41,799 nt of DNA from Desulfuromonas sp. GTDB lineage: Bacteria; Desulfobacterota; Desulfuromonadia; Desulfuromonadales; Desulfuromonadaceae. The notes under the pieces were generated by a model. The model did not search any database, was not told the origin of the DNA, and was given only the letters and a program-made list of their open reading frames with translations. Within the stretch, counting starts at the first letter, position 1, and every line of letters starts with the position of its first letter. This document shows positions 9,501 through 31,056 of this stretch, in pieces. Where the stretch lies: the NCBI GenBank assembly GCA_028685815.1, contig JAQUDG010000008.1:1-41799 (forward strand), in the 5' to 3' direction. A program made the translations under genes and the position numbers.

Positions 9501-9705
9501 CCTGTTCGATGGGGGCGGCGATAGTATCTTTGATAACTTGGGCGCTGGCACCGGGGTAGATGGCGCTGATCCTGACCACCGGTGGCGTGATGGATGGATA
9601 TTCTGCGACAGGCAGAGAGGTCAGGGATATTGCGCCAGCCAAGGTGATGACAATGGCGATAACCATTGCAAAGCGTGGGCGGTCAATAAATATCTTAGAA
9701 AACAT
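6556..9705 (-). CDS. RND multidrug efflux pump, HAE1 (AcrB/MexB) family
   Basis: 1049 residues, the normal length for AcrB-type pumps. The inner-membrane proton/drug antiporter has N-terminal FIDRPRFAMVIAIVI as TM1, the paired aspartates of TM4 in GLVVDDAIVVVEN (D409, D410), and the TM10 lysine in GLAAKNAILIVEF, which together form the proton relay. Two large periplasmic loops are present. No frameshift or missing catalytic residue was seen. It starts 3 bp after the adaptor gene, with AAGGAT upstream. The substrates cannot be inferred from sequence. Confidence 0.96.
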   Translation of the reverse strand: MFSKIFIDRPRFAMVIAIVITLAGAISLTSLPVAEYPSITPPVVRISAIYPGASAQVIKDTIAAPIEQEMNGVEDMLYMDSSSTNNGTYSLEITFDVDSDPDIDQVNVQNRLQLAESQLPPEVVNQGISVRRRSSDMLGVISFYSPGKTHDRLFLSNYISRTIKDTLQRIDGVSDVFVFGEFVYSMRIWMDPDKLSALGMSTDEVISAIRQQNIQATLGSVGTAPSVAGQQMQYTLNAKGRLDSVEEFQDIIIRTNDRGGLVQLKDVADIELGSKSYSTGGNLDNREAISMALYRSSSANAVATMERVGEVLKAQEKNMPNDVAYVIPYDTTNYVKEAIKEISFTLGLTFLLVVLVIFVFLQNIRATLVPAAAIPVSIIGTFAALLILGFNINTITLFALILAIGLVVDDAIVVVENVYRIMEEEDLEPKEATIKAMSQVTGPIIATTLVLLAIFVPIAFMPGITGLLYKQFGVTLCISVLISSLCALTLSPAMCSVILKKTKPRKRGPLAWFNKFMNFSRNTYVGIVGWLIRKTAVGVVLFLLMSAGAWILSGQIPTSFLPQEDKGAFLIDVQLPEGATLERLSEVNAEATTRILQIDGIERVIAIDGFSLLSGNAENVGFIIADLTPWDERTSPDLSIDSLVQKVTQELNGISTASIRAFIPPPIQGLGVTGGFDFRLQALEDQSPSELAAVGLGLVMAANQHPALSMVYTTYSAATPQLWLDLERIRMQELGVSAGNLFATLNQHLGSQYVNDFNLYGRTYQVKVRAKENFRKNPDDIRDLYVTSNSGKEIPVENLLNISTILGARVINRYNQFTSLTINGQAAPGHSSGQAMEIMEELAAEHLPPGYSFEWSTMSLQEQKASGTVGYLFALALIFAYLFLVAQYESWNLPLTIVLSVTIAALGALVGLWITGIPMSIYAQIGMVLLVGLAAKNAILIVEFSRDRKVEGAETREAAIDGARVRFRAVLMTAFTFILGVAPLVWAIGAGAASRRHIGIVVFSGMIAASTIALLIIPVLFYLFQSLRDKSMAWKQRRRERLDNEELTD

Positions 9706-9708
9706 ATG

Positions 9709-10857
9709 TTAGTTATCCTTATCTTCCTTGAGCTGCATATTTACTTCGGCACCAGGAACGACCTTCTGGGTTCCTTCGTAAACAACCAGTTCACCTTCAG
9801 TCAGGCCGGAAATAACAAATAGGTTGCGCCCGCTGGTTTTTCCAGCTTCAATCTTACGTTTCTCAATCTTCGAATTGTTATCTACCACCAGCACGTAGGC
9901 CCCCTCTCTGTCACGTTGCATCGCAGCCTGCGGAATGGAAATTTGCATCGAAGGGGCGGCAGGGGTGAGGGAAACATTAACGTACGCACCAGGAAGCAGA
10001 TGTCCCTGTGGGTTGGTAAAGATCGACCAGATAGCGATGGTGCCAGTGCTTGAATCCATTTTGTTATCGATAAATTCTACCCGACCGGTCTGAGGATATT
10101 CTTTCCCATCTGTAGTGCTGACTCGGATCTTGAGGCTTGGGTTGGCCGCGGGTTTAGCTGCATCGGTCGCGGCTTTGCGGATGGTCTCCGTCTGTCGTTC
10201 GTTGACGGAAAACAGCACCCGGATGGGATCGACGCTTACAACCTCAGCCATGGAACCCGACGTTGAGGAGATCAGATCGCCCTTTTTATAAAAACTTTTG
10301 CCAATGCGGCCATCCAGCGGCGCTTTAATGGTGGTATAGCCGAGATCTATCTCGGATAGTTGTAGATTAGCCTGTGATTCGAGCAGACGGGCCTGGGCTA
10401 GGTCGTAGGCTGCTTTGGCATCATCCATATCGGTTTGAGGGACGCTCCCGGCTCCGGCAGAGCGTAGGCGATTTAGTTTGGTCTGAGCCTTGAATAGATC
10501 GGCTTCAGCCTGAGCCACCCTAGCTCGGGCAGCGGCCACCCTGGCTTGGTAGGGAGCTTGCTCGATGACATACAGGGTTTGTCCTTTTTTGACCACGGAA
10601 CCCTCGGCAAAATTCACCTGCTCCAAATAGCCTGCCACTCTGGCTTTTAAGTCTATCGACTCCAGTGCCTCAACGTGGCCGATGTATTTTTTCGGGAGAT
10701 TGGCATCCTGCAGGGTTGCGGTTGCAACCCCTACTACTGGTCTTGGCCCCTGACCTTGCTGGGGTGCAGCGGCTGCAACCAGTGGAAGGAAAGCGAGGGT
10801 GGTGCAGAAAACTAAGAATGTAGATAGTGTTCTGGGTATTTTGGTTATGGCTCTCAT
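9709..10857 (-). CDS. RND efflux periplasmic adaptor (AcrA/MexA family)
   Basis: 382 residues. A Sec signal peptide ends about AAAA/PQQ without a lipobox cysteine, so the mature protein is probably soluble or held by the pump rather than lipidated. The lipoyl halves (ARVAGYLEQVNFAEGSVVKKGQTLYVIE and IKAPLDGRIGKS) flank an alpha-hairpin (about 95-165). Beta-barrel and membrane-proximal domains follow. It bridges the inner-membrane pump and outer-membrane duct. A strong site (AGGAGG) precedes the ATG. It is co-directional with tetR 137 bp upstream and the pump 3 bp downstream. Confidence 0.94.
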   Translation of the reverse strand: MRAITKIPRTLSTFLVFCTTLAFLPLVAAAAPQQGQGPRPVVGVATATLQDANLPKKYIGHVEALESIDLKARVAGYLEQVNFAEGSVVKKGQTLYVIEQAPYQARVAAARARVAQAEADLFKAQTKLNRLRSAGAGSVPQTDMDDAKAAYDLAQARLLESQANLQLSEIDLGYTTIKAPLDGRIGKSFYKKGDLISSTSGSMAEVVSVDPIRVLFSVNERQTETIRKAATDAAKPAANPSLKIRVSTTDGKEYPQTGRVEFIDNKMDSSTGTIAIWSIFTNPQGHLLPGAYVNVSLTPAAPSMQISIPQAAMQRDREGAYVLVVDNNSKIEKRKIEAGKTSGRNLFVISGLTEGELVVYEGTQKVVPGAEVNMQLKEDKDN

Positions 10858-10994
10858 TGTTGCGGTTCCTCCTTCTGCGCCTGAATGTGACAGGGCAGGT
10901 GTGGTATTGACGTAAAAAAGAAAAAAACGATAATGGATTCAAATTAAGCAGACAGGCGCTCACCGCATACGCTTTGTGCGCGCAACTGTTCGCG
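10858..10994. other. tetR to adaptor gap
   Basis: 137 bp. No clear terminator or second TetR-like palindrome was found, so read-through from tetR into the efflux genes is possible. A promoter of its own cannot be excluded. Confidence 0.35.
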
Positions 10995-11570
10995 TTAGCG
11001 CTTCAGCGCGTCCCAACATGCTTCTATAGTACTTTCAAAGGTTCGTTCATCGATCAGCGTTCCCCGATTGGCATGTTCCTTGGCCAACGCTACGATAGGG
11101 CCGAAAGCCGTAGCTTCCAAGCTCAGACAGGGGGCATCCTTGATTATGTGTTGCTCACGCGCGCGTAACATCAATGCACGCAGATAGCCTTTTTCGGTAT
11201 GTAGTTCCCGATTTAGGGTGTTGAACGAGGAAAAATGGAATTGTTCCATAAAGCGAAACTGGTCTGGATGCTTGAGAAAATAGCGCAGCAGATTGCGCAG
11301 CAGGCGGGTCATCTGCTCCTGAATCGTCATGCTGGGCTCCACCTCATGCAGCATCGCGATATCTATTTCCAGATAAACTTGATCAAAGAGGGCGTGGATC
11401 AATTCTTCCTTGCTATTAAAATGAAAAAACAACGTGCCGCTGGCCACTCCCGCACGCTTGGCAATTTGGGCGGTCGAAGCTCTGGTTAAACCATGTTCGG
11501 CAAATAGCTCCAGGGCAGCTTCCAACAGTGCTTGGCGTTTAGATTGTTTTTTGGTGCTGGGTAGAGCCAT
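10995..11570 (-). CDS. TetR/AcrR-family repressor of the efflux operon
   Basis: 191 residues. The N-terminal helix-turn-helix (about 10-55) reads LLEAALELFAEHGLTRASTAQIAKRAGVASGTLFFHF, the canonical TetR DNA-binding domain. The C-terminal ligand domain is variable, so the inducer is unknown. The start has GGAGAGAAC before the ATG. A perfect 7-4-7 inverted repeat of the kind bound by this family lies 70 bp upstream across its own promoter, implying autoregulation and, if read-through occurs, control of the whole efflux run. Confidence 0.93.
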   Translation of the reverse strand: MALPSTKKQSKRQALLEAALELFAEHGLTRASTAQIAKRAGVASGTLFFHFNSKEELIHALFDQVYLEIDIAMLHEVEPSMTIQEQMTRLLRNLLRYFLKHPDQFRFMEQFHFSSFNTLNRELHTEKGYLRALMLRAREQHIIKDAPCLSLEATAFGPIVALAKEHANRGTLIDERTFESTIEACWDALKR

Positions 11571-12027
11571 GTTCTCTCCAGTTTTGTTCTGTTTTAAGCA
11601 TAGGTGTTTCTCCGTGTTGTTTACGCATTATAACCTTGCTTGACTGAGTGGTCAGTCAGCGGTCAGCAATTTTAGTTGAGAGGGTAGTCCACGTCAAGGG
11701 AAAATCAGAGATAGCGCGCGGTTTTAGGTGGTGTTGAGGCTAGCTGAATAGGTTGTTGGGGGTAGTGTAACGCAGAGATGACCACTGACAGCGGCAGTGA
11801 ATGCGCTGTACAGGGTAGATGCAGCACGGAGGTGGCGTTTGCATGATAACACCTGTATTATGCGAGGGTTATTATTACGCTGTACGGATGGTAGAAGTTG
11901 GTGCGTCAGGGCTAGGGCGGGGGCACCAGAGCAGAAATTGTCTAGTAAGTGACCATGTTTAGATAAGCTTATCGCAAGAATAATTCAGGGGATGTTTTAT
12001 CGTCATTCACCTGTTGATGGAGCTACT
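11571..12027. other. Divergent intergenic region, tetR / K+ channel
   Basis: About 457 bp. It holds the tetR promoter and operator at 11627-11664 and a 12-bp perfect palindrome at 11962-11973. The stretch 11670-11955 has no recognisable gene, RNA or repeat. Confidence 0.5.
11627..11664 (-). promoter_or_regulatory. tetR promoter overlapping TetR-type operator
   Basis: On the minus strand a perfect TATAAT (11632-11627) lies 17 bp downstream of a CTGACC -35-like hexamer. The perfect inverted repeat TGACTGA-GTGG-TCAGTCA (11641-11658) fills the spacer and -35 region, so a bound TetR dimer would block RNA polymerase. The operator form is typical of AcrR/TetR regulators beside RND pumps. Confidence 0.78.
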
Positions 12028-13740
12028 ATGAAGGGTATTGCAAGTCAGCTTGCCTTTTTTGTGCGCGGACGCGCGCGCCAAAACCTAAAGGTGCTGTTGA
12101 TATATTTTGCGTTTCTGCTGGTCATGATGCTGACCTACGCCACTGTTTTTCGCTATCTCATGTGGCATACCGAAGGGCGTGAATTCTCTTTTATAGCCGG
12201 AATCTACTGGACCATAACGGTGATGAGTACCCTTGGCTTTGGTGATGTCACCTTTCACAACGATATAGGCTATGCTTTTTCTGGGATTGTCACGATCTCC
12301 GGAGTGGTCTTTCTGTTGATTATCCTCCCCTTCAGCGTGGTTACCCTGTTTCTGGCACCATGGATTGAGCAACGGTTGCGCTACACTCCCACCTTAGAGT
12401 TACCCGCGAATACGCATGGGCACATTGTGGTGTTCGGTCTTGACTCCATTACCCGCTTGTTCGTACGTAAACTGCAAGGCCGAAACATGAACTTTGTAAT
12501 AGTTACGCAAGATTATGACAGGGCTCTGAAGCTGGAAGAGCAGGAAGGGCTTAAGGTGGTCTATGGCTCGCCTACAGATGCAGGGGTGATGCGGCACCTA
12601 CGGGTGGAATCAGCTCAGTATGTGGTGGCAAATCTGTCCGACCCAGAAAATGCCAACATCTGCCTTACGCTGCGTTCCCTCTGTGATACACCGGTGGTGG
12701 CGTTGGTGGGCGATCCAGAGCATCAAGTTCTGTTGCAGCAGGCCGGTGCTAATCATGTGATTGCCATGCCGCATATTTTGGGGCGGTTTCTGGCCACGCG
12801 CGCGACTACCAAGGGGGCCATGGCTCATGTGCTAGATACCTTCGGAGCGTTGCAGATAGCTGAAATACCGGTAAATGGCACTCCTTTTGCCGGTATGACC
12901 TTGGCGCAATCGCAAATTCGACAGAAGACGGGACTGTCTGTGATTGGTCTGTGGAAGCGTGGCCAACTGACTATCCCCACGCGCGACACAATTCTGGATG
13001 ATGAGAGCCTGGCGCTGCTGACCGGAAGCAGTGATCAACTCAAGAGCCTGGAAAAGCTGATCGGAGACCCTGACGAGGATGATTTGATCTTTATCTTGGG
13101 GCACGGGCATATAGGCTGCGCCGCTGCAAGATTTCTGGAGCGCAAGCCGGTACCTTTTGTCCTCATTGATCGAAGTGAAAACAGCGTCTGCACCAGACAT
13201 CAGCCGATACTTGGCGACGCTACATCCCGTCAGATTCTCATGGATGCGGGCATCGAGCGCGCAACTGGGGTGATTGTGACCACCAATGATGATAGCACCA
13301 ACGTGTTCCTCACTTTGGCCAGTCGGCATATGCACCCCGATATCCGCATTGTGGCGCGCGCCAACTCAGATGAAAACGTGGATCAGCTCTACGCTGCCGG
13401 AGCCGATTTTGTGGTGGCCAACGCCTCCGTGGGGACCAGCATTTTAATGAATCTCATCGATCGTAAGGCTTCGGTATTTCTAAGCGAGGGGATGAATGTA
13501 TTCAAGCGCGGAGTTCCAGTTGCTCTGGTGGGCAAGGATATTGTCAGCTCGGAGCTACGCGACACCCTTGGGTGCTCCATTGTGGCACTAAAGTATCCCG
13601 ATGGACACATGGATACTTCGCCTGAACCCACCGCGGTGCTGGAGCCAGGCGTAAGTATGTTGCTAATCGGTAGCGCCGAGCAGGAAAAAGCCTTTGACAG
13701 CCGCTATCCACATTCGCCGAAGAAAAAATTTGCGGAGTAG
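12028..13740 (+). CDS. Potassium channel protein with two RCK (TrkA-N/C) modules
   Basis: 570 residues from ATG 12028. Two TM helices (about 20-48 and 85-112) flank a pore helix and filter IYWTITVMSTLGFGDV (TLGFGD in place of TVGYGD). Two cytoplasmic RCK modules follow. The first begins HIVVFGLDSITRLF, where the GxGxxG nucleotide motif is lost. The second begins LIFILGHGHIGCAAARFLE with an intact GxGxxG and LIDRSE as the acidic end of strand 2. The second module is therefore the likelier nucleotide binder. An in-frame ATG at 11992 has AGGGG directly abutting it, while 12028 has GGAG at good spacing. No neighbour indicates a specific role beyond K+ flux. Confidence 0.92.
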   Translation: MKGIASQLAFFVRGRARQNLKVLLIYFAFLLVMMLTYATVFRYLMWHTEGREFSFIAGIYWTITVMSTLGFGDVTFHNDIGYAFSGIVTISGVVFLLIILPFSVVTLFLAPWIEQRLRYTPTLELPANTHGHIVVFGLDSITRLFVRKLQGRNMNFVIVTQDYDRALKLEEQEGLKVVYGSPTDAGVMRHLRVESAQYVVANLSDPENANICLTLRSLCDTPVVALVGDPEHQVLLQQAGANHVIAMPHILGRFLATRATTKGAMAHVLDTFGALQIAEIPVNGTPFAGMTLAQSQIRQKTGLSVIGLWKRGQLTIPTRDTILDDESLALLTGSSDQLKSLEKLIGDPDEDDLIFILGHGHIGCAAARFLERKPVPFVLIDRSENSVCTRHQPILGDATSRQILMDAGIERATGVIVTTNDDSTNVFLTLASRHMHPDIRIVARANSDENVDQLYAAGADFVVANASVGTSILMNLIDRKASVFLSEGMNVFKRGVPVALVGKDIVSSELRDTLGCSIVALKYPDGHMDTSPEPTAVLEPGVSMLLIGSAEQEKAFDSRYPHSPKKKFAE

Positions 13741-13944
13741 GCTTGGGGGGCGGTGAACCATCGCTGTAGCGGTCCGCCAAGGCAACACCCGTGAAATCGG
13801 ATAGCCCAACCACCCCTAGCACCTCCTTTGTAAGGGGGGAATTGTGGCATCCAATTCCTCTTGGTGCCGCAACCTGTAGAGGCCATTCATGGATCGCCTC
13901 TATGGTCGCACCCCCCCCTTACGCCATTGGTGATACAGAAAGTG
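13741..13944. repeat. Intergenic stretch with two palindromic repeat-like elements
   Basis: Two elements are visible. The first is a C-rich/G-rich repeat around 13812-13842 (CACCTCCTTTGTAAGGGGGG), which on the reverse strand translates as PPYKGGARGG, the mark of a widespread intergenic repeat. The second is an inverted repeat at 13877-13902 (TAGAGGC...GCCTCTA enclosing CATTCATGGAT), similar to the 'GGCGATTCATGAATCGCC' palindromes found between bacterial genes. Their presence argues against extending the downstream deacetylase start to 13861. Confidence 0.55.
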
Positions 13945-14817
13945 ATGCAAAGGATGGAGCAAAGTTCGAAGCCAAACTGCAAGCTGATTGTCAACGCCGA
14001 CGATTTCGGCTTTGCTCCCGGACGGGATCGGGGCATTTTGCGCGCGCTCGATACTGGTATCGTTAGCAGTGTTTCGCTGCTAGCCAATGGCAACACCTGT
14101 GCCAATGCCGCAACTGCAGCAAAGATGCGCAGGGTTGGAGTTGGGGTGCATCTGAATCTATCGGAAGGCAAAGCCCTCAGCGGCAAGATCAGCGGTTTGA
14201 CCGATGCACAGGGTAATTTCTACGGCAAACACAGAGCGCGTTCGGTGTTTGCCGATGCCGCTTTTGATCAGGAGGCGGCCCTGCGCGAACTCAAGGCTCA
14301 GGTCGAGACCGTTCTTGGCCATGGGATTGTCCCCGATCATGTGGATTACCATCAGCATATGGGGCTTTTCCCCGCAACGCTGGCGCTGGTGCTGGAGGTG
14401 TGTCGCCAGTTTGGCATCAAGGCGGCGCGGTTGTGCGCACCGACTGAACCATCAGAATATGACCCCGAGGCGATTCTCGGCAAAGAGCTCGGCCTGTACC
14501 GCCGCCTTGCAGCGCAAATGCGCATGACCCTTCAGCAAGCAGGGATTCGGTGCCCTGACGGTATCTGGGGGATGCCCTTGCTCAATCGTCTGCATGAAAA
14601 AAGTCTATGTGTATTGCTGGAGCAGATCCCCCCAGGCCATTGGGAATTGATGGTCCATCCTGGCGATGAAGATCCCGGCCTGCCGTTCTGCACTGCGGAG
14701 CGCAGACGTGAGCAGGAGGCGCTTATTTCAGCTCCGGTGCGTGAGATTATTACCCGCCGGGGCATAACTCTAACCACCTTTGGAGATCTAAGTGCGCATT
14801 CTGATCTGCTCGCCTGA
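13945..14817 (+). CDS. hpnK: ChbG/HpnK (YdjC) family carbohydrate deacetylase
   Basis: About 290 residues. The polysaccharide-deacetylase-like fold is marked by VNADDFGFAPG (metal/catalytic Asp pair), GVHLNLSEGKAL (His-x-Asn) and DHVDYHQHMGLFP (metal-binding histidines), plus HPGDED near the end. HpnK-type members are called hopanoid-biosynthesis-associated; ChbG members deacetylate chitooligosaccharides. The nearest subgroup is HpnK-like from the 'VNADDFG...NGxxCxxAxxAA' pattern, but no squalene-hopene genes are in view, so the substrate is open. Start is uncertain: ATG at 13945 or 13954. The downstream glycosyltransferase overlaps by 26 bp, so the pair probably modify the same glycan or glycolipid. 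Confidence 0.83.
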   Translation: MQRMEQSSKPNCKLIVNADDFGFAPGRDRGILRALDTGIVSSVSLLANGNTCANAATAAKMRRVGVGVHLNLSEGKALSGKISGLTDAQGNFYGKHRARSVFADAAFDQEAALRELKAQVETVLGHGIVPDHVDYHQHMGLFPATLALVLEVCRQFGIKAARLCAPTEPSEYDPEAILGKELGLYRRLAAQMRMTLQQAGIRCPDGIWGMPLLNRLHEKSLCVLLEQIPPGHWELMVHPGDEDPGLPFCTAERRREQEALISAPVREIITRRGITLTTFGDLSAHSDLLA

Positions 14818-15835
14818 ATACAACCCGGCCACCGGCAACTGGATTAGCGCCACGCGCTACCGGCGCGGGTTACAGTCCTGCGGGCATGAAGTATATCTAT
14901 GCCACCTCGATTCAGCCGCGACTTCTCTCGAGCGGATCGCCGCAGAATACAAACCGGACATATTGTTGTTGATACACGCCTTTCGTACCGGACGCCAATG
15001 GCTCAATAGCCCGCTGATGTGTGCCGACGCGACGCGCATCCCGGTAATTGTGCTGCTCAGCGGTACCGATATCAATGAAGGTCTGTACGATCCCATGCAG
15101 GCACCGATAATCGAACGGGTGTTAACCCAGGCCGATGCGCTGCTCATTCAGAACCCTCTCGAAGCAGAATATCTGCGCCAGCACTATCCCCACTGGGCGG
15201 CACATCTGCACGAAATCCCCCCCGGTATCGAGCTGGGGATGGAACCCTATCCGCTGCGCCAGAGACATCCGCTGAATCCAGAGGCGCTGCTGTTTTTATG
15301 CCCCGCAAGTATTCGTCCCGTAAAAGGGGTGCTCGAACTGTTAGAGCTCTTTGATTCCGTAGCCGAAGAGTCGCCTGCGGTGGAGTTGCCTGCGTGGGAA
15401 TTGCTGTTCTGTGGCCCGGAACTTGACGGAAAATACAGCGACAGCTTTCTCGCCGCGATAGACATGCGTGCGTGGGCTCACTATCTGGGGGTGTTGCCAC
15501 CCACTTCCATGGGGGCGGTTCTACAACAGGTCGATGTGGTGGTGAATAACTCCGTATCCGAAGGGATCTCTAATGCTTTAATCGAGGCCGCCGTTATCGG
15601 ATGTCCGATTCTTGCTCACGATATTCCTGGGAACCGACCGGTGGTAGAGCAGGGTCTCAATGGCTTGTTATACCAGGGCAAAGAGACCTTTGTCGCTGCG
15701 GTCAAGCGTTTACTGCTTGAACCAGAGCTGCGCCGTGCGCTGTCACGCCCAAACCCCGTGCGCTACTCCGCCCAACGCGAAGCGCAGGCCCTGCACGAGC
15801 TGTGCTGCAGCCTGAGCCCTGCAGCATGTCATTGA
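14792..15835 (+). CDS. GT4-family glycosyltransferase
   Basis: 347 residues from GTG 14792, supported by GGAG at 14781-14784. GT-B fold: N-terminal LICSPEYNPATGNW and a donor-binding C-terminal domain with PASIRPVKGVLELLELF, LLFCGPELDG, and VVVNNSVSEGISNALIEAAVIGCPILAHDIPGNR. The EGISNALIEA stretch is the E(x)7E region of the GT4 family, retaining nucleotide-sugar transferases. The acceptor is unknown. Overlap with the deacetylase gene implies a shared pathway, with the transferred amino sugar plausibly being deacetylated afterwards. No TM segment is evident, so it is likely cytoplasmic or peripheral. Confidence 0.87.
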   Translation: MRILICSPEYNPATGNWISATRYRRGLQSCGHEVYLCHLDSAATSLERIAAEYKPDILLLIHAFRTGRQWLNSPLMCADATRIPVIVLLSGTDINEGLYDPMQAPIIERVLTQADALLIQNPLEAEYLRQHYPHWAAHLHEIPPGIELGMEPYPLRQRHPLNPEALLFLCPASIRPVKGVLELLELFDSVAEESPAVELPAWELLFCGPELDGKYSDSFLAAIDMRAWAHYLGVLPPTSMGAVLQQVDVVVNNSVSEGISNALIEAAVIGCPILAHDIPGNRPVVEQGLNGLLYQGKETFVAAVKRLLLEPELRRALSRPNPVRYSAQREAQALHELCCSLSPAACH

Positions 15836-18291: not shown

Positions 18292-19245
18292 ATGCGCCGG
18301 ACACTGAGACAATTAGGGCAGCAGAAGGGACAGGCAGCCACGGAGTTCGTAATCGCGGCGGCCTTTATTCTGGTGCCTCTGTTTCTGACGGTACCGCTGC
18401 TGGGCAAATATATCGATATTAAACACGCGGCGATTCAGCATGCACGGTTTACCGCGTGGGAATATACCGTCTGGTTTGGGCAAGATGAGTACATCATGAG
18501 CGGCGTAGAGTCTAATCAGCGCGCTGGAGTTAAAAAATACAAACAGGTCACCGAAGAGGGGTTTGAATATTTCTTTACAGACCGCACCTCCCCAGACTAC
18601 GGCACTTCCATGGCGACCATGGCGGTGGAACCTTTGTGGAAAGATCACCGCGCCAAGGCGTTATTTCACCTTGATGATATTAAAACTGAGCTCAAAGAAA
18701 AACAGACGCCGTTGCCGTTTGGAGCCATTGGCGATTTGTTGCAAAACCTGCTTGATGTTGTAGGCACTGCGGTCGCGTACTTGGGCAAGCTGATAAGTGC
18801 CCTTGGACCTGCTACAGAGTTTGATGTCCTGCGCAACTCTAAAGGTTATTTTACCTCTGAAGTTGAGGTTCCGGTGCGCTCTCTTGGGCAGATTCTACCC
18901 CGCTACAATTTAAAGGGTGAACACGCTGGTGCCTCAGCTCAACCCCTAATCTTTAGTGCCAAGGCGGCAGTGCAGTCAAACAACTGGAACGCTGGGAGCG
19001 GCAGCCAGGCCATACGCGAGAGCAAAGGGCTGGTGGTTACTTCGATATTGGCGCCCATATCTCATCCGGTAAATAAGATTGTGGGTGGATTAAATGATCT
19101 GGTGGGCAAAATCCCACTGATTAGAGTCAAATTGCCGGGGTTGCCTGAGTTTGGGCATGTCAAGGATGATCTAATGCCCTACGAGCACCTGGAGGAAAAC
19201 AAGAAAACGCTAGAGTCGAAAGCTGGGCTGCTTTCATATGAGTAG
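18292..19245 (+). CDS. TadE-like pseudopilin, long form
   Basis: 317 residues. The prepilin-like N-terminus KGQAATEFVIAAAFILVPLFLTVPLLGKY has G/QAATEF (Glu at +5) and one TM helix, the TadE/TadF pattern. The remaining ~270 residues are extracytoplasmic and longer than the typical TadE (150-200). They contain a hydrophobic stretch at about 145-175 and no domain I can name. GGAG precedes the ATG. The last bases overlap the next gene by 8 bp. As minor pseudopilins, TadE/F proteins are needed for Flp pilus assembly in known systems. Confidence 0.75.
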   Translation: MRRTLRQLGQQKGQAATEFVIAAAFILVPLFLTVPLLGKYIDIKHAAIQHARFTAWEYTVWFGQDEYIMSGVESNQRAGVKKYKQVTEEGFEYFFTDRTSPDYGTSMATMAVEPLWKDHRAKALFHLDDIKTELKEKQTPLPFGAIGDLLQNLLDVVGTAVAYLGKLISALGPATEFDVLRNSKGYFTSEVEVPVRSLGQILPRYNLKGEHAGASAQPLIFSAKAAVQSNNWNAGSGSQAIRESKGLVVTSILAPISHPVNKIVGGLNDLVGKIPLIRVKLPGLPEFGHVKDDLMPYEHLEENKKTLESKAGLLSYE

Positions 19246-19975
19246 AACTGACTGCGCATACGTACCTAGTGACCGCAGGTGTGCCTCGCGTGCGTTATTG
19301 CTCCAGAGTGCGGTTGCCGTATTTCTCTTTTGTGTATTTATGCCAGTCAGTGGCTATAGCGCTCCGACTATTCCCGCTCCACAATGGATCAAGCGCACTG
19401 CAGTGGCAGAGAAGATGCTTGTTAATGGCATCCCTTCAAAAGTGGAGTATTTTGAGGCAGATAGGGACGTAGAAGAAGTCCTGAAATTTTACCGCAAAAC
19501 CTGGCAGAGCCAATACGCTGGGCATGCGGGCTATCGTGAAGCCCATGTAGAGCCGTGGCATGTTATATCTCGATTGGAGCAGCGTCACTTGCTCACCGTG
19601 CAGGTCAGACAGAGCAATGCCCTTAGCGCCGATGGCTATCTTGCCGTCGCCAATTTGGATGAGATTGACACAAAAACTTCGGTAGCAGCGGATATCCCAA
19701 AACTTGCCGGCAGCAAAGTTCTTAATCAAAACACTAGTTTTGACCCTGGGAAAAAAGGGGAGGTTGTGATGCTGGCGAATAAGTTTTCAGTGGCTACTAA
19801 TGGGCAGTTTTATCGAGATCATTACAGCGACCGAGGCTGGGGGGTATTGCAAGACCAAGAACTTCCCGGCGCGAGGGCTATGGCGTTCCGGCGTTTCGGT
19901 GCAGAGGTGCGCCTAGTGGTAAACAAAACTGCTGTGGGCTCTGTGGTGGTAATCAATCGCGTAACCTCGGATTAA
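19238..19975 (+). CDS. Unrecognised secreted protein with two similar halves, Tad-associated
   Basis: 245 residues. An N-terminal signal-like segment (about 17-42, ending SGYSA/PT) points to export. The mature part appears to be two related units. One has FYRKTW and later LLTVQVRQS and GYLAVANL; the other has FYRDHYSDRGW and later VRLVVNKT and SVVVINRV. Each reads as a helix with an FYR...W signature followed by two beta strands. I do not recognise the family. Its location between two pilin-like genes and its overlap with the TadE-like gene suggest a periplasmic or outer-membrane pilus accessory, perhaps doing the job of RcpB, which is missing here. Confidence 0.6.
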   Translation: MSRTDCAYVPSDRRCASRALLLQSAVAVFLFCVFMPVSGYSAPTIPAPQWIKRTAVAEKMLVNGIPSKVEYFEADRDVEEVLKFYRKTWQSQYAGHAGYREAHVEPWHVISRLEQRHLLTVQVRQSNALSADGYLAVANLDEIDTKTSVAADIPKLAGSKVLNQNTSFDPGKKGEVVMLANKFSVATNGQFYRDHYSDRGWGVLQDQELPGARAMAFRRFGAEVRLVVNKTAVGSVVVINRVTSD

Positions 19976-19988
19976 AGGGAGAAATAGC

Positions 19989-20462
19989 ATGATATGCAGG
20001 CAGCGGCGCCACCCTTCACCTCATACCTCTTGCCAGGCCTCCCACCGAACTTCTCGGAATGTCTCATGCCGTGTTCCACCGCGTATCTCGCTATGTTTTA
20101 GGCAAAATATAAAAAGTATCCCGCGTATCTTTAACCAAACGGGGCAGTCCACCATCGAGTATTTGGTGGTGTGTATTATCTTGATTGCGGTGCTTGTTAA
20201 AGGGCCAGGCGTTTTTCAACGGATGAGCGGTACCATGCAGAATAAATACCACAGCTATGCTTTCTCCGTGGCGATCTCCGATCCGCCTAGTAAGGTTTTT
20301 GATGATGCTATTCAACGAGACTCGGCCAAAATTGAGCATGTCCTAGAAGCGCTCGAAGAGATAGAAAAAGATATAGAACACGCCCACCTTCCAGATCCGC
20401 GCAGCATGGAAATGCCGGGGGGGATAGAAAAAATTTGGCAAAAAATAACGCATCTGTTGTAG
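19989..20462 (+). CDS. Pilin-like protein with long basic leader
   Basis: 157 residues. Processing motif G/QSTIEY (Glu +5, Tyr +6) is followed by a hydrophobic helix LVVCIILIAVLV, as in Flp/TadE-type pilins. A mostly helical tail (about 75-157) includes a charged segment HVLEALEEIEKDIEH. The leader is unusual: about 52 residues, rich in Arg/His/Ser with four cysteines. The ATG at 19989 has a strong AAAGGGAG site and no later in-frame ATG precedes the motif, so the long leader seems real. It could be a minor pilin or adaptor. Start confidence is moderate; pilin-like nature is good. Confidence 0.65.
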   Translation: MICRQRRHPSPHTSCQASHRTSRNVSCRVPPRISLCFRQNIKSIPRIFNQTGQSTIEYLVVCIILIAVLVKGPGVFQRMSGTMQNKYHSYAFSVAISDPPSKVFDDAIQRDSAKIEHVLEALEEIEKDIEHAHLPDPRSMEMPGGIEKIWQKITHLL

Positions 20463-20502
20463 GAACATGTGCCCGCTTGCTAACCTTAAATAAGTGACTG
20501 CT

Positions 20503-22728
20503 ATGCCAAAAATTGACCAAGGTGGAGATAAACGGAAAACCTGGAGGCTGCTGGGCCTGGCAGTATTATTTGCAGTGTTGGCCGGCCTAGGGACGTTGAC
20601 CCATTTGAAACTGCTGGAGCGTCGCTTGGAACAGCGTCTGACACCACCGGAAAAACAGACGGTGCAGGTTGTGGTCGCAGCTCAAAATCTCGAGGTAGGC
20701 AGCCGCGTGAATGCAGCTACCATGGCGGTGCGTACCGTTCCAGCGGATTTTGTCAACAGTGAGGTGATCACCTCATCCATGTTTGACGCCGTAGATGGTG
20801 CGATCCTCAACAAGCCCTTAGGTCAGGGGAAGATGCTTAGCAATGATTATTTTGACCTGAATATTCCTAAAGATTTCTCTGGCACCATTCAACTCGGGAA
20901 CCGCGCCGTAACCATTCAAGTGGGGGAGATCAACTCGATTTCCGGCCTTATCCGTCCAGGCAACTTTGTGGATATCGCGGCTAGAATTCATGGCGCTAAC
21001 GTCGTTGGGGAGACCGACAGCGGCGAAGTTATTATGCCGGTGCTGGAAGATGTCCTCGTGCTGGCTACGGATCAAAAGAGCGCGCGCCCCAACGAAGATG
21101 AATTCAAGAACCTGCAAGTGTCCCAGCGCCGCCAGAGCTACGATACCCTCACCCTTGAAGTTACCCCTAAGGAAGCGGCGTTGCTCACCCTGGCTGAGGC
21201 ACGTGGTTCCATCGTCGCTACCTTGCGTAATCCAGACGATACCGCAGGCTTCCGTTACAATCGTATCGGCATGAGTGATCTGATTGGAAATGCGGATACG
21301 CTGTTTCGTCAGGCGCGGGCTAAATATGTTAACAGCGAGCTTGCAGGGGTGCATACAGACGCAGAGGGGAATCTGGTTACCCAGAGCGGAATCAGGATTA
21401 CCGATCCCAATGTGCGGATGAATGAGGACGGCTTGCTGGTAACGCAAGATGGCATTGTCCTTTCAGGGCGCAATCTGGTTGTAGGGCAGGATGGGAAAAT
21501 TTATACCCAGGACGGCCAGCTGGTTGATACGCAAAGTTTGGTTGCAAGTCAGGACGGCACTCTCGTGGATAAACACGGTAACGTGGTGGATGGCAACGGT
21601 TATAGAACCGTCAAGGGCGGATTTCTCGTAGATAACGCTGGAAATATCTATACCCATGACGGCAAAAAAATAACTGGGGTAGAAGTGGGCAGAGATGGGC
21701 AGGTGCGCACCAAGGATGGGCAGGTGCTCAATGCAGATGATTTGGTTGTTGATGCCGACGGAAGCGTGCGCGTCAAAATAGAACAATCCCAACCAATCCA
21801 TCTTGATGCACAGGGGAATTTGGTGACAGCGGATGGCAAGTCTGTAATGGCGCGGGATTTGGTGAGTGTAGACCATGAAGGGGTGGTCCGCACCAAAGAT
21901 GGCAGGGTGCTGCAAGGGGTGCGTGTTGGTGCAGACGGTAAGCTCTATGATGTAGATGGTAGCGAGGTGAGTGCCGTAGATGTACTCAAGGCCTCAAAAG
22001 GGATGCACCTGGATGTAGATGGAAACCTAGTAGATGCGAACGGTCAACCGGTACGTACCCGTGGTGCTGCTGAGACGGCGATCCACCTTGATGAGAATGG
22101 CAATCTAGTCACCTCTGATGGACAGGCGGTCCTGCCCCAAGATCTTGTCAGTATTGGCCATGACGGCGTGGTGCGTACCAAAGATGGCAGGGTGCTGCAA
22201 GGGGTGCATGTCGGCGAAGATGGTGCCTTATATTCAGCCGATGGTAAGAAGATGTCGGCCCAAGATATCGCCTTGGCAGCAAAAGGGCTGCACAAGGATG
22301 CGTCCGGCAATATTGTGGATGAAAACGGGAAACTTGTCGCGGCTAAAGACTTCGTCAGTGTCGGAGGTGATGGCAAGGTTCGTACCAAAGATGGGAATGT
22401 AATTGATGGTGCTTACGTGGATACGGAGGGCGTATTACGCAATGCCGATGGCTCAGAAATGAGTGCGGAGGATGTCGCGCTCCACGATATGGTGGCGCAA
22501 GCTAATCTGACCGCACCCTTGGCAGGTGTCAGCGGAGCGTATAATCCTGAATTCGTTCAGTCCCTCGGTTCAGGTACAACCGGCATAGGTTTCGGTGCCT
22601 TATCTCAAGATGTCGAAATCATCATCGGTGGCAGCAGCGACGGGGTGGCTAAGACCTTTATGCTTCATATCCGCCAGATGGACTCGGATGATAAAGAAAA
22701 AGCAACCATACAATCTTTGGATAACTAG
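20503..22728 (+). CDS. cpaB: CpaB/RcpC Flp pilus assembly protein with large DG-repeat insertion
   Basis: 741 residues from ATG 20503; typical CpaB is about 250-320. A TM anchor (about 17-40) is followed by a SAF domain (VQVVVAAQNLEVGSRV...LGQGKMLSNDYF) and the CpaB/RcpC domain (RAVTIQVGEINSISGLIRPGNFVDI...TLTLEVTPKEAALLTLAEARGSIVATLRN). The final strand of the family, DVEIIIGG, reappears only at about 703-710. Between lie about 380 residues (DNA 21349-22482) of repeats such as VRTKDGRVLQG, DGNLVDANG and DGKLYDVDG. CpaB is thought to work at the secretin in the periplasm. The repeats may extend it to the outer membrane or outside. It is followed at once by the secretin gene. Confidence 0.9.
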   Translation: MPKIDQGGDKRKTWRLLGLAVLFAVLAGLGTLTHLKLLERRLEQRLTPPEKQTVQVVVAAQNLEVGSRVNAATMAVRTVPADFVNSEVITSSMFDAVDGAILNKPLGQGKMLSNDYFDLNIPKDFSGTIQLGNRAVTIQVGEINSISGLIRPGNFVDIAARIHGANVVGETDSGEVIMPVLEDVLVLATDQKSARPNEDEFKNLQVSQRRQSYDTLTLEVTPKEAALLTLAEARGSIVATLRNPDDTAGFRYNRIGMSDLIGNADTLFRQARAKYVNSELAGVHTDAEGNLVTQSGIRITDPNVRMNEDGLLVTQDGIVLSGRNLVVGQDGKIYTQDGQLVDTQSLVASQDGTLVDKHGNVVDGNGYRTVKGGFLVDNAGNIYTHDGKKITGVEVGRDGQVRTKDGQVLNADDLVVDADGSVRVKIEQSQPIHLDAQGNLVTADGKSVMARDLVSVDHEGVVRTKDGRVLQGVRVGADGKLYDVDGSEVSAVDVLKASKGMHLDVDGNLVDANGQPVRTRGAAETAIHLDENGNLVTSDGQAVLPQDLVSIGHDGVVRTKDGRVLQGVHVGEDGALYSADGKKMSAQDIALAAKGLHKDASGNIVDENGKLVAAKDFVSVGGDGKVRTKDGNVIDGAYVDTEGVLRNADGSEMSAEDVALHDMVAQANLTAPLAGVSGAYNPEFVQSLGSGTTGIGFGALSQDVEIIIGGSSDGVAKTFMLHIRQMDSDDKEKATIQSLDN
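21349..22482 (+). repeat. Coding repeats inserted in CpaB
   Basis: Tandem degenerate units rich in DG/NG pairs. The clearest long unit is 95 codons: the segment beginning IHLD (about 21796) recurs 285 bp later (about 22081), and its second half appears a third time from about 22354. Within it, a 31-base stretch at 21892-21922 is identical to 22177-22207, indicating recent duplication. Acidic patterns such as DVDGN and DENGN resemble calcium-binding loops, but that is only a resemblance. Confidence 0.85.
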
Positions 22729-22729
22729 G

Positions 22730-24250
22730 ATGAGAATGAAGAATCAGGCAGACCAGATAAAGCGTTCGACTCGGCATCCATCGATGCTGCTGTTGATATT
22801 TGCCGTGCTGATCCTCGTACCTTCCGTTGCACTGGCAGCCAAACAGACCATTATCATGTATGTGGGTGAAGTTAAGGTTCTAGAGATCAACAATATTGAA
22901 CGCGTAGCCATTGGTAATCCCAGAGTGGCCAGTAATAGCATTTTGCCCCAAGGACAACTGGTAGTCCTAGCTGATGCAGAAGGGGTTACCAAAATGCATA
23001 TCTGGCGCAAAGATGGCAGTGAGCGTGACCTAGAGATCACCGTCCAGCAAAAGCGGGTGATGGATCATTATCAAGAACTAGTACTGCTACTGGCGGATAT
23101 CTCTGGGATAAAGGTATATAAAGTTGGAGATGTTACCGTGGTGAAGGGTGGCATAGCTCCTGTGGATAAAAGTCACTATGACCGTATTATGAAACGCTAT
23201 CCCAATGTGCTTGATCTTGTGAAAACCCGCAACATTACCGCCGATGTCAAATATCTACTCAAGGATGTTCCTGGCATCAATGTGAATGAAGTTGGTGGCG
23301 ATCCCGTGTTATCCGGCGAAGTTACTTCAGAATACGAACAGGTTCTCAAGGTGATTAAAGAAAAATATCCTTCAATCATGAATCTCACCCGGGTGCAGGA
23401 TGCCGTGGCGGATAAGATGGTGTACATGAAGGTGCGGATTATGGAGATGAATCGCTCTGTGACCGAAAACCTCGGTATCAATTGGAACATTATGAAGGGG
23501 ATAGACGGACCGTCGTTCGAATTTGGCCTCGAAGGAAAAACTTCAGGCAACGATGCTTCTATCCTCAACAACACCCAGCAGGAGAGTATTCCTGGTTCTC
23601 TGGCAGCAGCGGGGAGGAAAAGCCTCACTAGCCCCGTTGGATACTTCGGCATTGCGACCGGGGCGAGTTCCATGATCAATCTGTACGAAGGTACCGGTGA
23701 CGCCGTGGTGCTAGCCGAGCCTAGGTTGAGTGCACGTTCAGGTGGATCGGCAGATTTTTTGGCGGGTGGCGAATATCCGGTACCCACAAGCAATGCCATG
23801 GGTGCTACCAATGTAGAGTTTAAAAAATACGGCATCTCGCTCAATGTTCAGCCCGTGGTCGATGATATGAACAATATCCTGGCGCATATCGAAACTGAAA
23901 TCAGCACCATTGACGAGGGCACTTCGGTTAACGGCATTCCGGGGGTAAGTACAAGGCGCACCAATACCGATGTCAGTCTCAAGGCAGAACAAACCCTAGT
24001 AATTGCGGGTTTAGTTAAGAGTGAGGCTGGAAAAAACTTCAATAAGGTCAAGTGGCTTGGTGATTTACCCGTGCTAGGGAAATTGTTCAAATCGAAGAAA
24101 TTTCAGAATAAAGAGACTGAGCTAGTGATTTTCATTACCCCATATATTTATGACGCTACCTCTGAGCTTAACCGGCAGGAACTGGAGAAGAGTGAGCTCA
24201 TCGATAAGGAATTCGCCCGCATTATGCAGGGGGAAAATATTCTTGAATAG
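22730..24250 (+). CDS. rcpA: Flp pilus secretin RcpA/CpaC
   Basis: 506 residues. The signal peptide ends about SVALA/AK. The N-terminal secretin/Tad domain reads IIMYVGEVKVLEINNIERVAIGNPRVA, followed by two BON-like repeats (about 105-160 and 175-230). The C-terminal secretin domain has VYMKVRIMEMNRS, VVLAEPRLSARSGGSADFLAGGEYPVP, VEFKKYGISLNVQPVV and LGDLPVLGKLFKSKKFQNKETELVIFITPYI. These are all classical RcpA/CpaC features. It forms the outer-membrane pore of the Tad apparatus. ATG 22730 lies one base after the cpaB stop (22726-22728); ATG 22736 is possible. Confidence 0.95.
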   Translation: MRMKNQADQIKRSTRHPSMLLLIFAVLILVPSVALAAKQTIIMYVGEVKVLEINNIERVAIGNPRVASNSILPQGQLVVLADAEGVTKMHIWRKDGSERDLEITVQQKRVMDHYQELVLLLADISGIKVYKVGDVTVVKGGIAPVDKSHYDRIMKRYPNVLDLVKTRNITADVKYLLKDVPGINVNEVGGDPVLSGEVTSEYEQVLKVIKEKYPSIMNLTRVQDAVADKMVYMKVRIMEMNRSVTENLGINWNIMKGIDGPSFEFGLEGKTSGNDASILNNTQQESIPGSLAAAGRKSLTSPVGYFGIATGASSMINLYEGTGDAVVLAEPRLSARSGGSADFLAGGEYPVPTSNAMGATNVEFKKYGISLNVQPVVDDMNNILAHIETEISTIDEGTSVNGIPGVSTRRTNTDVSLKAEQTLVIAGLVKSEAGKNFNKVKWLGDLPVLGKLFKSKKFQNKETELVIFITPYIYDATSELNRQELEKSELIDKEFARIMQGENILE

Positions 24251-24309
24251 AGCATATCAACCTCGCACTGAGATCGAATGTGCTTTGGCGCAGAGGTGAC
24301 CGTATAGCT

Positions 24310-26094
24310 ATGATGCGTATTAAGGTCAAAGGGAGAAATGGGCAAGAGCTTGAGTGCGTAGAATGTGCAGATCACCTCTGCACCATTGGGCGTTCGAGCA
24401 AAAACTTTCTTCAACTAAAAGGTTGGCGGATAGCTGGGGTGCATGCGCAGCTTGAACGCCGTGGGGATGGCATCTATGTCCAGGATATGTCTGGCGCTAT
24501 TGGCACCACGGTAAACGGCAAAGCTGCGGATACCTACGGGCCGTTATCCAGTGCAGACGTTATCTCGATAGGCAGCTATCTCCTGAGCGTAGAGAGTGGT
24601 AAGCCCAATTCGGATCAGGCCGTTACAGCCCCCAAGGTGGTGGCGCCTTTGGCCGCCGATGAACCAAGCACTAGAACCACTCCTGCGTTTGAGAGTGACG
24701 TCTCTGCTTCACGTCCTCCACAAACTATGGCTGAAATATATAAAAAGGTACCAGTCCACACCCTTGGGGTGAAGCCCGGCGCTGCAGAAGTGGGGCAAGA
24801 GTCGGAGCCTATAGCGGAAGATCGTTTTGTGTGGCACAAACGCATCCATGCCAAGCTTATGGGCGATATGGATATCCGCCGCACCGATGTGGAGTCTCTA
24901 GATGATAAACAGCTGACGGCATTAGTAAAAGGGCTGATCCTGGGAATAATCGAGGAGATGGACACCGATCTTCCTGCCCACCTCGATCGAGAACGTCTGG
25001 CCAAGGAAGTGTTGAACGAGGCGGTCGGCTTGGGCCCCCTAGAAGACTTTCTCGCCGATGATTCCATAACCGAAATCATGGTGAATGGTTACGATAAGAT
25101 CTACTATGAAGCGGGCGGGAAGCTGCACAACTCGACTGTAACCTTCAGTAGTAATGATGCAGTGTTGGCGGTTATTGAGCGGATCATCTCTCCGCTGGGG
25201 CGGCGCATCGACGAGAGTTCACCTATGGTGGACGGGCGCCTCAAGGATGGCTCCAGAATCAACGCCATCATCCCCCCTCTGGCGATTAAAGGGCCGTGCC
25301 TGACGATCCGGAAATTTTCTCAGAAGAGCCTAACCGTGGAAGATCTGTATCGTTTCGGGGCGATCACCCCCGAGGTGGTACAGTTTTTAGAGATGGCGGT
25401 CCGAAACCGTAAAAACATTATTATTTCCGGCGGAACCGGCAGCGGTAAAACCACCTTTCTTAATCTGCTTGCTAGTTTTGTCCCTTCCGATGAACGCATT
25501 GTCACGGTAGAAGACTCCGCCGAATTACGTTTGGAACAGCCCCACGTAGTCTCTTTGGAGGCGCGCCCTGCCAATATGGAAGGCAAGGGGGCGGTCGCCA
25601 TTCGCGATTTGGTGAAAAACTGTCTGCGTATGCGCCCCGATCGTATCGTGGTGGGCGAGTGCCGTGGCAGTGAAGCACTGGATATGCTCCAAGCGATGAA
25701 TACCGGTCACAACGGCTCCCTGACCACTGTACATGCCAATACCCCCCGTGATGTTGTCTCGCGCCTGATGGTCATGGTTATGATGGCGGGGATGGAGTTG
25801 CCCGACAAGGCGATCCTGGAACAAATAGCCTCGGCAGTGGATATCATCGTGCAGCAGTCACGTTTTTCTGACGGCAGTCGGAAGATCACCCATGTTACCG
25901 AAATTACGGGGATGGAAAGTGGGGTTGTGCAGATGCAGGATTTGTTCTTGTTCAGACAGAGCGGTTTGGATGAAAAGGGGAAGGTTCTCGGCACGCTAAA
26001 GGCAACCGGGCGGGTGCCTGAATTTTACGAAGACCTGCGCCAGAGCGGGCTTCAGGTTGACATGAGTATCTTTGAGCAGGATTCCGATGTTTAA
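24310..26094 (+). CDS. tadA: TadA/CpaF pilus ATPase with N-terminal FHA domain
   Basis: 594 residues. Residues about 5-95 form an FHA domain: CTIGRSSKN, VHAQLERRGDGIYVQD, TTVNGKAA and DVISIGSYLL, although the usual S-x-x-H core reads IAGVHAQL (no Ser). A linker (about 100-165) leads to a TadA ATPase: EIMVNGYDKIYYE, Walker A GGTGSGKTT (about 373-381), the acidic VTVEDSAELRL, Walker B RPDRIVVGECRG, and GSLTTVHANT. It powers pilus assembly from the cytoplasm. FHA modules bind phosphothreonine, so phospho-dependent recruitment or control is possible. The stop overlaps the tadB start by 8 bp. Confidence 0.94.
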   Translation: MMRIKVKGRNGQELECVECADHLCTIGRSSKNFLQLKGWRIAGVHAQLERRGDGIYVQDMSGAIGTTVNGKAADTYGPLSSADVISIGSYLLSVESGKPNSDQAVTAPKVVAPLAADEPSTRTTPAFESDVSASRPPQTMAEIYKKVPVHTLGVKPGAAEVGQESEPIAEDRFVWHKRIHAKLMGDMDIRRTDVESLDDKQLTALVKGLILGIIEEMDTDLPAHLDRERLAKEVLNEAVGLGPLEDFLADDSITEIMVNGYDKIYYEAGGKLHNSTVTFSSNDAVLAVIERIISPLGRRIDESSPMVDGRLKDGSRINAIIPPLAIKGPCLTIRKFSQKSLTVEDLYRFGAITPEVVQFLEMAVRNRKNIIISGGTGSGKTTFLNLLASFVPSDERIVTVEDSAELRLEQPHVVSLEARPANMEGKGAVAIRDLVKNCLRMRPDRIVVGECRGSEALDMLQAMNTGHNGSLTTVHANTPRDVVSRLMVMVMMAGMELPDKAILEQIASAVDIIVQQSRFSDGSRKITHVTEITGMESGVVQMQDLFLFRQSGLDEKGKVLGTLKATGRVPEFYEDLRQSGLQVDMSIFEQDSDV

Positions 26095-29451: not shown

Positions 29452-29520
29452 TCTGAGTTGGTCCCAATCCATGGCAAATAGCACATGCAACAACTCACGC
29501 TGGTTCTATTGAAAGGGTCA

Positions 29521-31056
29521 ATGATGGCGCATGTATTAGTTACTGGCGCAGATGGCTTTATCGGGAAGTCGTTGTGCCTACGCCTAGAGCAGGAACATGT
29601 TGTGCGCCGCAGCGTACGCAGACATGCTCCCGAAAATGACTGTTTGCCCGTTGAAAACGTTGCAGCCATTGGAGATATCGATGCTGTCACCGATTGGGGC
29701 GCAGCGTTAGCGGGGGTGGAGGTGGTTGTGCATACCGCCGCCCGCGTCCATATCATGAAAGAAGAACGTGCCGACCCCGCAGCGCAGTTTCAGCGGGTTA
29801 ATACCGCAGGCACCCTGAACCTAGCGCGTCAGGCTGCAGTAGCCGAAGTTAGGCGCTTTATCTTTCTCAGCACCATCAAGGTAAACGGAGAGCAGAGTGT
29901 TGCAGGCCAGCCTTTTAATGCAACAGACTGCCCTGCACCGGAAGACCCCTACGCCGTTTCCAAACACGCAGCGGAAAAGGGACTGCAACAGTTGGGGGCT
30001 GAAACTGGGATGGAGATAGTGATAATTCGCCCTCCCTTGGTCTATGGCGCGGGGGTCAAAGGGAACTTCGCTACCCTGATAAAGCTGATTGAAAAAAGGG
30101 TGCCGCTTCCTCTAGGCGCTATCCACAATAAACGCTCGTTGGTGGGCTTGGACAACCTCGTCGATCTTATCGCCACTTGCATCAAGCATCCCGCTGCAGC
30201 CAATCAGATATTTTTAGCTGGAGATGGGGAAGACCTCTCCACCTCGGAACTGCTGCGCCGCCTCGCTCAAGCACTAGGGAAAGCTCCGCTGCTGCTGCCG
30301 ATTCCGGCTACCTTCCTTGAGTTTGGGGCGAAGTTGCTGGGCAAACAGGCCGTAGCGCAGCGTGTTCTTGGGTCATTGCAGGTGGATATATGTAAGGCGC
30401 GAGACTTGCTGGGCTGGACTCCTCCAGTGAATGTGGATGAGGGGCTGAGGAGAGCGGTGGGGAGTTGCTCCCAATCGCCTTGCTCCTATTTAAGGGAACA
30501 AACCACCATGATCCGTTTTTTTGACATCCTGTTTGCAGCGTTTGGGCTGATATTCGGGCTCCCAGTTCTGCTCCTCATCAGCGTCATTGGCTATTTTGAT
30601 ACGGGATCTGCGTTATTTTTTCAGGAGCGGATGGGGCGCGCTAAAAGGCCATTTGTGCTGGTAAAATTTCGAACCATGCACCTTGGGACAGAATCGGTCG
30701 CCAGCCACCTGGCGAATTCAGCGTCCATCACGGCAGCGGGCAGATTTTTGCGTAAAACCAAACTGGATGAATTGCCGCAGCTGTGGAATGTACTTAAAGG
30801 GGAGATGAGTCTGGTGGGGCCGCGCCCGAATCTGCTGAATCAAGCGGAGCTGATTGCCCAGCGCGAGGCGTTAGGAGTGTACGGCGCGCGTCCGGGAATT
30901 ACCGGCTTAGCGCAGGTGGAGGGGATTGATATGTCAACCCCTGAGTTGCTGGCGCAGACCGATGCCAAGATGCTACAGGAATTAAACCTCAGCGCCTATT
31001 TTCGCTATATCTTTATGACCCTTTCAGGTCGCGGGGCTGGGGATCGGGTGCGCTAA
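29521..31056 (+). CDS. Fused NAD-dependent sugar epimerase/reductase and bacterial sugar transferase (phosphoglycosyl transferase)
   Basis: 511 residues from ATG 29521 (AAAGGG upstream). The first ~315 are an extended SDR: VTGADGFIGKSL at the NAD(P) site and DPYAVSKHAAE with catalytic Tyr and Lys. From residue 330 follows a complete PF02397 monotopic phosphoglycosyl transferase: RFFDILFAAFGLIFGLP re-entrant helix, FQERMGR, FVLVKFRTM, KLDELPQLWNVLKGEMSLVGPRP, YGARPGITGLAQVEG. The two are usually separate neighbouring genes; similar SDR/transferase pairs (WreQ/WreU) make undecaprenyl-linked N-acetylquinovosamine. An internal ATG at 30508 with AAGGGA upstream could give the transferase alone, so fusion by loss of a stop is possible. 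Confidence 0.85.
   Translation: MMAHVLVTGADGFIGKSLCLRLEQEHVVRRSVRRHAPENDCLPVENVAAIGDIDAVTDWGAALAGVEVVVHTAARVHIMKEERADPAAQFQRVNTAGTLNLARQAAVAEVRRFIFLSTIKVNGEQSVAGQPFNATDCPAPEDPYAVSKHAAEKGLQQLGAETGMEIVIIRPPLVYGAGVKGNFATLIKLIEKRVPLPLGAIHNKRSLVGLDNLVDLIATCIKHPAAANQIFLAGDGEDLSTSELLRRLAQALGKAPLLLPIPATFLEFGAKLLGKQAVAQRVLGSLQVDICKARDLLGWTPPVNVDEGLRRAVGSCSQSPCSYLREQTTMIRFFDILFAAFGLIFGLPVLLLISVIGYFDTGSALFFQERMGRAKRPFVLVKFRTMHLGTESVASHLANSASITAAGRFLRKTKLDELPQLWNVLKGEMSLVGPRPNLLNQAELIAQREALGVYGARPGITGLAQVEGIDMSTPELLAQTDAKMLQELNLSAYFRYIFMTLSGRGAGDRVR

Follow-up and report, generated by a model that had tools for sequence, protein, structure and literature searches.

CpaB is a Tad-pilus protein that normally links the pilus machine of the inner membrane to the pore in the outer membrane. 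Its counterpart in Pseudomonas aeruginosa, RcpC, for which a structure was published in 2025 (PDB 9gzr), forms a periplasmic ring of twelve subunits that is anchored in the inner membrane, and a linker termed L3 leads from this ring to a C-terminal hairpin which, in a confident model, completes the beta-sheet of the N-domain of the secretin RcpA (PMC12307814). Loss of the hairpin abolishes Tad function, and L3 is required for ring formation; in addition, the modelled complex spans 21 nm compared to a measured periplasm of about 24 nm, a gap that the authors put down to linkers (PMC12307814). The hairpin of Caulobacter CpaB is predicted to meet CpaI, which serves as a bridge to the secretin (PMC13170226). 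Both proteins belong to Tad loci and share the succession of transmembrane helix, SAF domain (D1), RcpC domain (D2), L3 and C-terminal hairpin with the protein described here. However, RcpC has a short linker within a total of about 300 amino acids, whereas L3 of the present protein comprises 460 amino acids with about 17 hairpin repeats.

This protein is encoded within a stretch of 41,799 nucleotides from Desulfuromonas sp. (contig JAQUDG010000008.1), referred to as the window. The cpaB/rcpC gene occupies positions 20494-22728 of the forward strand, as do all domains given in this paragraph, and its frame is continuous and free of stops; it yields 744 amino acids from a GTG or 741 from an ATG three codons on, at 20503. 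The protein matched the CpaB equivalog TIGR03177 (pilus_cpaB) of NCBIfam with 133.2 bits (curated cut-off 71) and the Pfam family RcpC (PF16976) with 83.3 bits (cut-off 28.8; E=1.5e-23), and the solved RcpC structure (9gzr_A) gave a weak but correctly placed sequence match (E=0.016). An N-terminal transmembrane helix (20551-20613, residues ~20-40), recognized by reading and by alignment with the N-termini of relatives, precedes the SAF domain (20665-20844, residues 58-117; PF08666, E=5.4e-6) and the ring-forming RcpC domain (20875-21228, residues 128-245), the order of the latter two being established by profile. A helix is predicted by AlphaFold2 at low pLDDT in early L3 (21286-21324, residues ~265-277), followed by an insert of DG/NG beta-hairpin repeats (21352-22467, residues ~287-658; ~17 units of ~20 amino acids). 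The C-terminal beta-hairpin DVEIIIGGSSDGVAKTFMLHI (22606-22668, residues 705-725) matched, as DVEIIIGG...FMLHI, the VEVIRG... counterpart of relatives in sequence comparison, and was found in every relative of the class that was read except one ended by its contig. The original prediction had placed this closing strand directly behind the repeats; the order stood, but a short helix and about 45 amino acids of low predicted order (22468-22605, residues ~659-704; pLDDT <50 over most) lie in between. Judged from its sequence, the protein is thus a complete, true CpaB.

The insert falls into L3, measured from the LRN that closes the RcpC domain as far as the V[ET]VIxG of the hairpin, both of which are conserved. 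In the 41 CpaBs of the class in which both landmarks could be found, L3 has a length of 31-74 amino acids and is rich in proline, alanine and lysine; the linker in the window is therefore 6- to 15-fold longer, and most related CpaBs do not carry the same insert. A short L3 is a trait of the known CpaB/RcpC members that is absent here, although it is characteristic rather than defining. As the site corresponds to L3 of the P. aeruginosa structure, the insert can by analogy be placed in the span from the ring at the inner membrane to the secretin of the outer membrane, each of its ends being fixed to a part that lies in the periplasm (PMC12307814). This speaks against the earlier proposal that it reaches through or outside the outer membrane: in RcpC both flanks work in the periplasm, one as the D2 ring and the other as the hairpin modelled on the periplasmic N-domain of the secretin (PMC12307814). 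A periplasmic spacer is thus much likelier than a reach to the outer membrane, and we consider it probable, if by a modest measure, that L3 of this CpaB/RcpC has been lengthened to 460 residues as such a spacer, tethered at both ends. The ruler function considered in the original prediction and the position of the insert fit a spacer.

RcpC matches occurred in 83 of 277 genomes of the class, and neither in these genomes nor in 395 sampled genomes of the phylum was another match with such an insert seen. The class frames, counted from stop to stop so that some lengths are inflated, ranged from 255 to 440 amino acids, apart from the window protein (744), a frame of 111 cut by the end of its contig and one of 665, which is not a CpaB but an unrelated Ig-like protein with a sub-threshold RcpC match. 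The frames of 440 and 380 amino acids were ordinary CpaBs with 5' read-through, and the same applied to a frame of 413 from the phylum; the long phylum frames of 481, again 413 and 507 amino acids were left out of this reading. The usual CpaB length of 250-320 amino acids assumed at the outset therefore holds, and two members of the family had CpaBs of about 300 amino acids. In the single congener searched, no RcpC match was found. The next longest RcpC frame in the phylum sample has 507 amino acids and holds two RcpC matches. In another class of the phylum (genome G278, contig C284, 4673-6834), RcpC-family frames of 507 and 346 amino acids contained RcpC matches in tandem. A search with the repeat gave a single weak match in the 136 genomes of the order (E=2.2e-5, a frame of 149 amino acids); in the phylum its matches were weak and generic throughout, those that were read being NHL propellers and FlgE proteins. 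The literature searched contained no description of such a CpaB, in line with the original prediction. The long-L3 CpaB is so far unique among the genomes searched and occurs in one genome only; both the machine protein and its linker are known, and the enlargement of the latter is real and constrained.

By eye, the insert follows the pattern h-x-h-x-x-D-G-x-h-h-T-x-D-G-x-h-h in about 17 units of about 20 amino acids, 13 of which were recovered as distinct hairpin units by a strict regular expression. Self-similarity across residues 265-705 peaked at lags 95, 7 and 21 (scores 0.28, 0.11 and 0.00), the highest value of 200 shuffles over all lags being -0.33; the protein thus repeats beyond chance. 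Together with the profiles and the alignment, this bore out the long DG-repeat insert between RcpC domain and secretin-binding hairpin. Residues 436 and 531 each begin a block of 68 amino acids, the two being near-identical, and a third, weaker block starts at 600. Between the two closest blocks, dN was 0.28 and dS 0.99, demonstrating that the repeat is old and under purifying selection at the protein level. In addition, the codon usage of the insert is as near to that of the tad genes as is that of cpaC itself, and with dN below dS between copies this identifies the insert as a real, kept protein. An assembly or frame error or fusion with a foreign gene was ruled out by the continuous frame, the neighbour-like codon usage and the selection between copies. 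The proposed stabilization by calcium found no specific sign, as residues 283-682 contained no DxDxDG loop and only three DxDG motifs, and a calcium-binding repeat of the canonical type was thereby excluded.

These values also bear on a neutral or nearly neutral expansion, in which slippage of the repeat would have enlarged a tolerant, fast-changing L3 that took on no new task. L3 is of low complexity and two-fold variable in length among relatives, and the insert occurs in a single genome, as such an origin would lead one to expect. However, a dN/dS of about 0.28 between copies and the maintained hairpin pattern speak against neutrality, and the age of the copies (dS ~1) indicates that the domain has been held for a long time. 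We therefore regard a neutral expansion as rather unlikely.

The original prediction had suggested stacked hairpins or a rigid beta-solenoid. AlphaFold2 run without alignment returned a pLDDT of mostly 50-80 over the repeat, with strand-turn-strand-turn-strand (EEE-turn-EEE-turn-E) in nearly every unit; when the internal copies and fragments of DotG were supplied as alignment rows, the mean was 69.7 and the pTM 0.50, and most of the final 120 residues of the repeat reached 74-84. Regular hairpins at pLDDT 65-84 cover most of the repeat, and the modelling supports regular, stacked hairpins at middling confidence. The solenoid found no such support: pTM values of 0.27 and 0.50 in the two runs mark the overall shape as unreliable, and no PDB chain matched the model, which is of middling quality, at Z of 2 or more. 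Foldseek matches remained at TM <0.15 and included fibres, proteins with hairpin repeats and parts of the flagellar hook/rod, and a sequence search of solved structures with the repeat gave nothing significant.

The best of these weak fold matches include GtfD, CbpJ, C-LytA and DSR-M, whose hairpin repeats bind choline or glucan, and might point to a module that binds glycan or peptidoglycan, either keeping the alignment ring in place in the cell wall or bringing in wall enzymes. Choline- and glucan-binding repeats rely on conserved aromatic residues, whereas the repeat is poor in aromatics (Y+F ~3%); moreover, no Pfam family for peptidoglycan binding or for choline- or glucan-binding repeats matched, and the fold matches themselves stayed at TM <0.15 and below Z of 2. 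Such a role would nevertheless suit the proposal that RcpC may recruit wall-cleaving enzymes (PMC12307814) and the link of the Caulobacter machine to peptidoglycan (PMC13170226). On balance, we hold a wall-binding module to be improbable.

A search for similar repeats led to another kind of envelope-spanning machine. In 72,556 plasmids, the only matches to extend over about 80-90% of the repeat were in genes of the DotG/IcmE/VirB10 type in Dot/Icm-like loci of Teredinibacter, Salinimonas and Alteromonas. Two of the three genes inspected had a TrbI match, that of Salinimonas being below the curated cut-off; the Alteromonas gene had none but comes after a DotH/IcmK gene. A scan of 85,000 species genomes with six narrow peptide patterns gave one match, at a locus (L063) of a Pseudomonadota MAG, adjoining DotI/DotH-like and VirB11-like genes by reading. 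This Dot/Icm-like locus (7320-15163) encodes, side by side, two long DG-repeat proteins of 1211 and 1402 amino acids, apparently a split DotG, with a different type of unit (GNVIGxVxxDG). Like the window CpaB, DotG/IcmE proteins carry long DG/NG hairpin arrays in a protein of an envelope-spanning machine. However, their arrays are longer and placed ahead of a C-terminal TrbI/VirB10 part, this core is unrelated to SAF/RcpC, and identity is only 24-28%; as the window CpaB has no match to TrbI/VirB10 (PF03743), the likeness is confined to the repeat.

Similar units also occur elsewhere. The D1 domain of FlgE/F/G (PF22692) and DUF3659 repeats share a local xLDxxGNLVTxDGxxV hairpin sequence with the window CpaB, which lacks a flagellar rod/hook architecture. 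PF22692 matched the protein with 49 bits (cut-off 27) and also matched the Teredinibacter DotG, DUF3659 stayed below its cut-off, and Enterococcus DUF3659 proteins matched 39% of the repeat. Viral contigs and phages gave no relatives. The likeness to DotG may thus reflect just a common hairpin motif, as hook/rod D1, DUF3659 and NHL proteins are similar too; we read the DG/NG hairpin as a common, repeatedly used unit, and the likeness does not prove common descent with DotG. What is informative is the shared use in envelope-spanning proteins.

The surrounding genes form a tad locus, with Flp-like and TadG-like genes upstream of cpaB and the order cpaB, cpaC, FHA-cpaF, tadB, tadC, a TPR protein gene and a TadE-like gene. 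Two proteins of 317 and 245 amino acids (18292-19975), without notable Pfam or any NCBIfam match, are encoded immediately 5' of a prepilin-like gene (19989-20462), which lies between them and cpaB. The CpaF/TadA ATPase (24280-26094) has an N-terminal FHA domain (PF00498) ahead of its T2SSE domain. Right after the tad genes, a protein of 523 amino acids (29485-31056) combines epimerase and bacterial sugar transferase domains, and a cobalamin riboswitch (Rfam RF00174, 36.1 bits) is located at 795-914 of the reverse strand.

The secretin gene cpaC (22736-24250, forward strand; PF00263 and PF13629) starts 8 bases past the cpaB stop. Its product has an extra periplasmic N-module (23042-23227, forward strand) of 62 amino acids between the pil_N domain and the usual N-module, compared to 18-25 amino acids in the same interval of 48 class relatives. 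The additional piece is weakly similar to the next module (32% identity over 50 amino acids) and is apparently a diverged duplicate of it. A lengthened N-region as partner of the long CpaB is suggestive only, since the total of 192 amino acids just exceeds that of the longest relative (188). The best matches of this CpaC fall outside its own order, and the genome with the best match (G287) has a CpaB with a short L3 on the same contig.

A periplasmic spacer would accommodate these observations as follows. On the model of P. aeruginosa, CpaB would be held in the inner membrane by its N-terminal helix, 12 subunits would encircle the pilus as a ring formed by their SAF and RcpC domains, and the secretin of the outer membrane would receive the C-terminal hairpin at its N-domain. 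L3 would have grown mostly by internal duplication of hairpin units of about 20 residues, and since the repeat is located between ring and hairpin, each subunit would contribute one hairpin strut that keeps ring and secretin apart across the periplasm and ties the two together, as the DG-repeat region would do in VirB10 proteins of the DotG type. In favour of a spacer, we count the CpaB identity, the conserved flanks, purifying selection, codon usage, the regular hairpins, the DotG matches and the N-module of CpaC; against it count the occurrence in one genome, the lack of a reliable shape or fold match, the generic likeness of the repeat and an N-region of CpaC that is barely the longest. Choline-binding repeats advance by about 10 A per unit; at the same rise, about 17 units would extend over roughly 15 nm or more. 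It is conceivable, but doubtful at present, that twelve struts, each of this length provided that the units stack as in other hairpin repeats, determine how far the ring lies from the secretin and perhaps wall a longer periplasmic conduit, the Tad machine having independently gained a DotG-type DG-hairpin spacer and the secretin having lengthened alongside. Although surface proteins often contain DG-rich hairpin repeats and the VirB10 homologue CagY, a T4SS parallel, is reported as surface-associated, a repeat pushed through or beside the secretin to serve as an adhesin or recognition part is very improbable, as both flanks are periplasmic parts and no signal or transmembrane segment was seen within the repeat; surface exposure is thus unlikely and was set aside as the main reading.

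A natural CpaB whose long linker is built from repeats makes it possible to test how the length of a pilus machine is fitted to the width of the envelope. That DotG-type proteins contain repeats of this kind as well suggests that arrays of DG hairpins may recur as periplasmic spacers in machines that are unrelated to each other.
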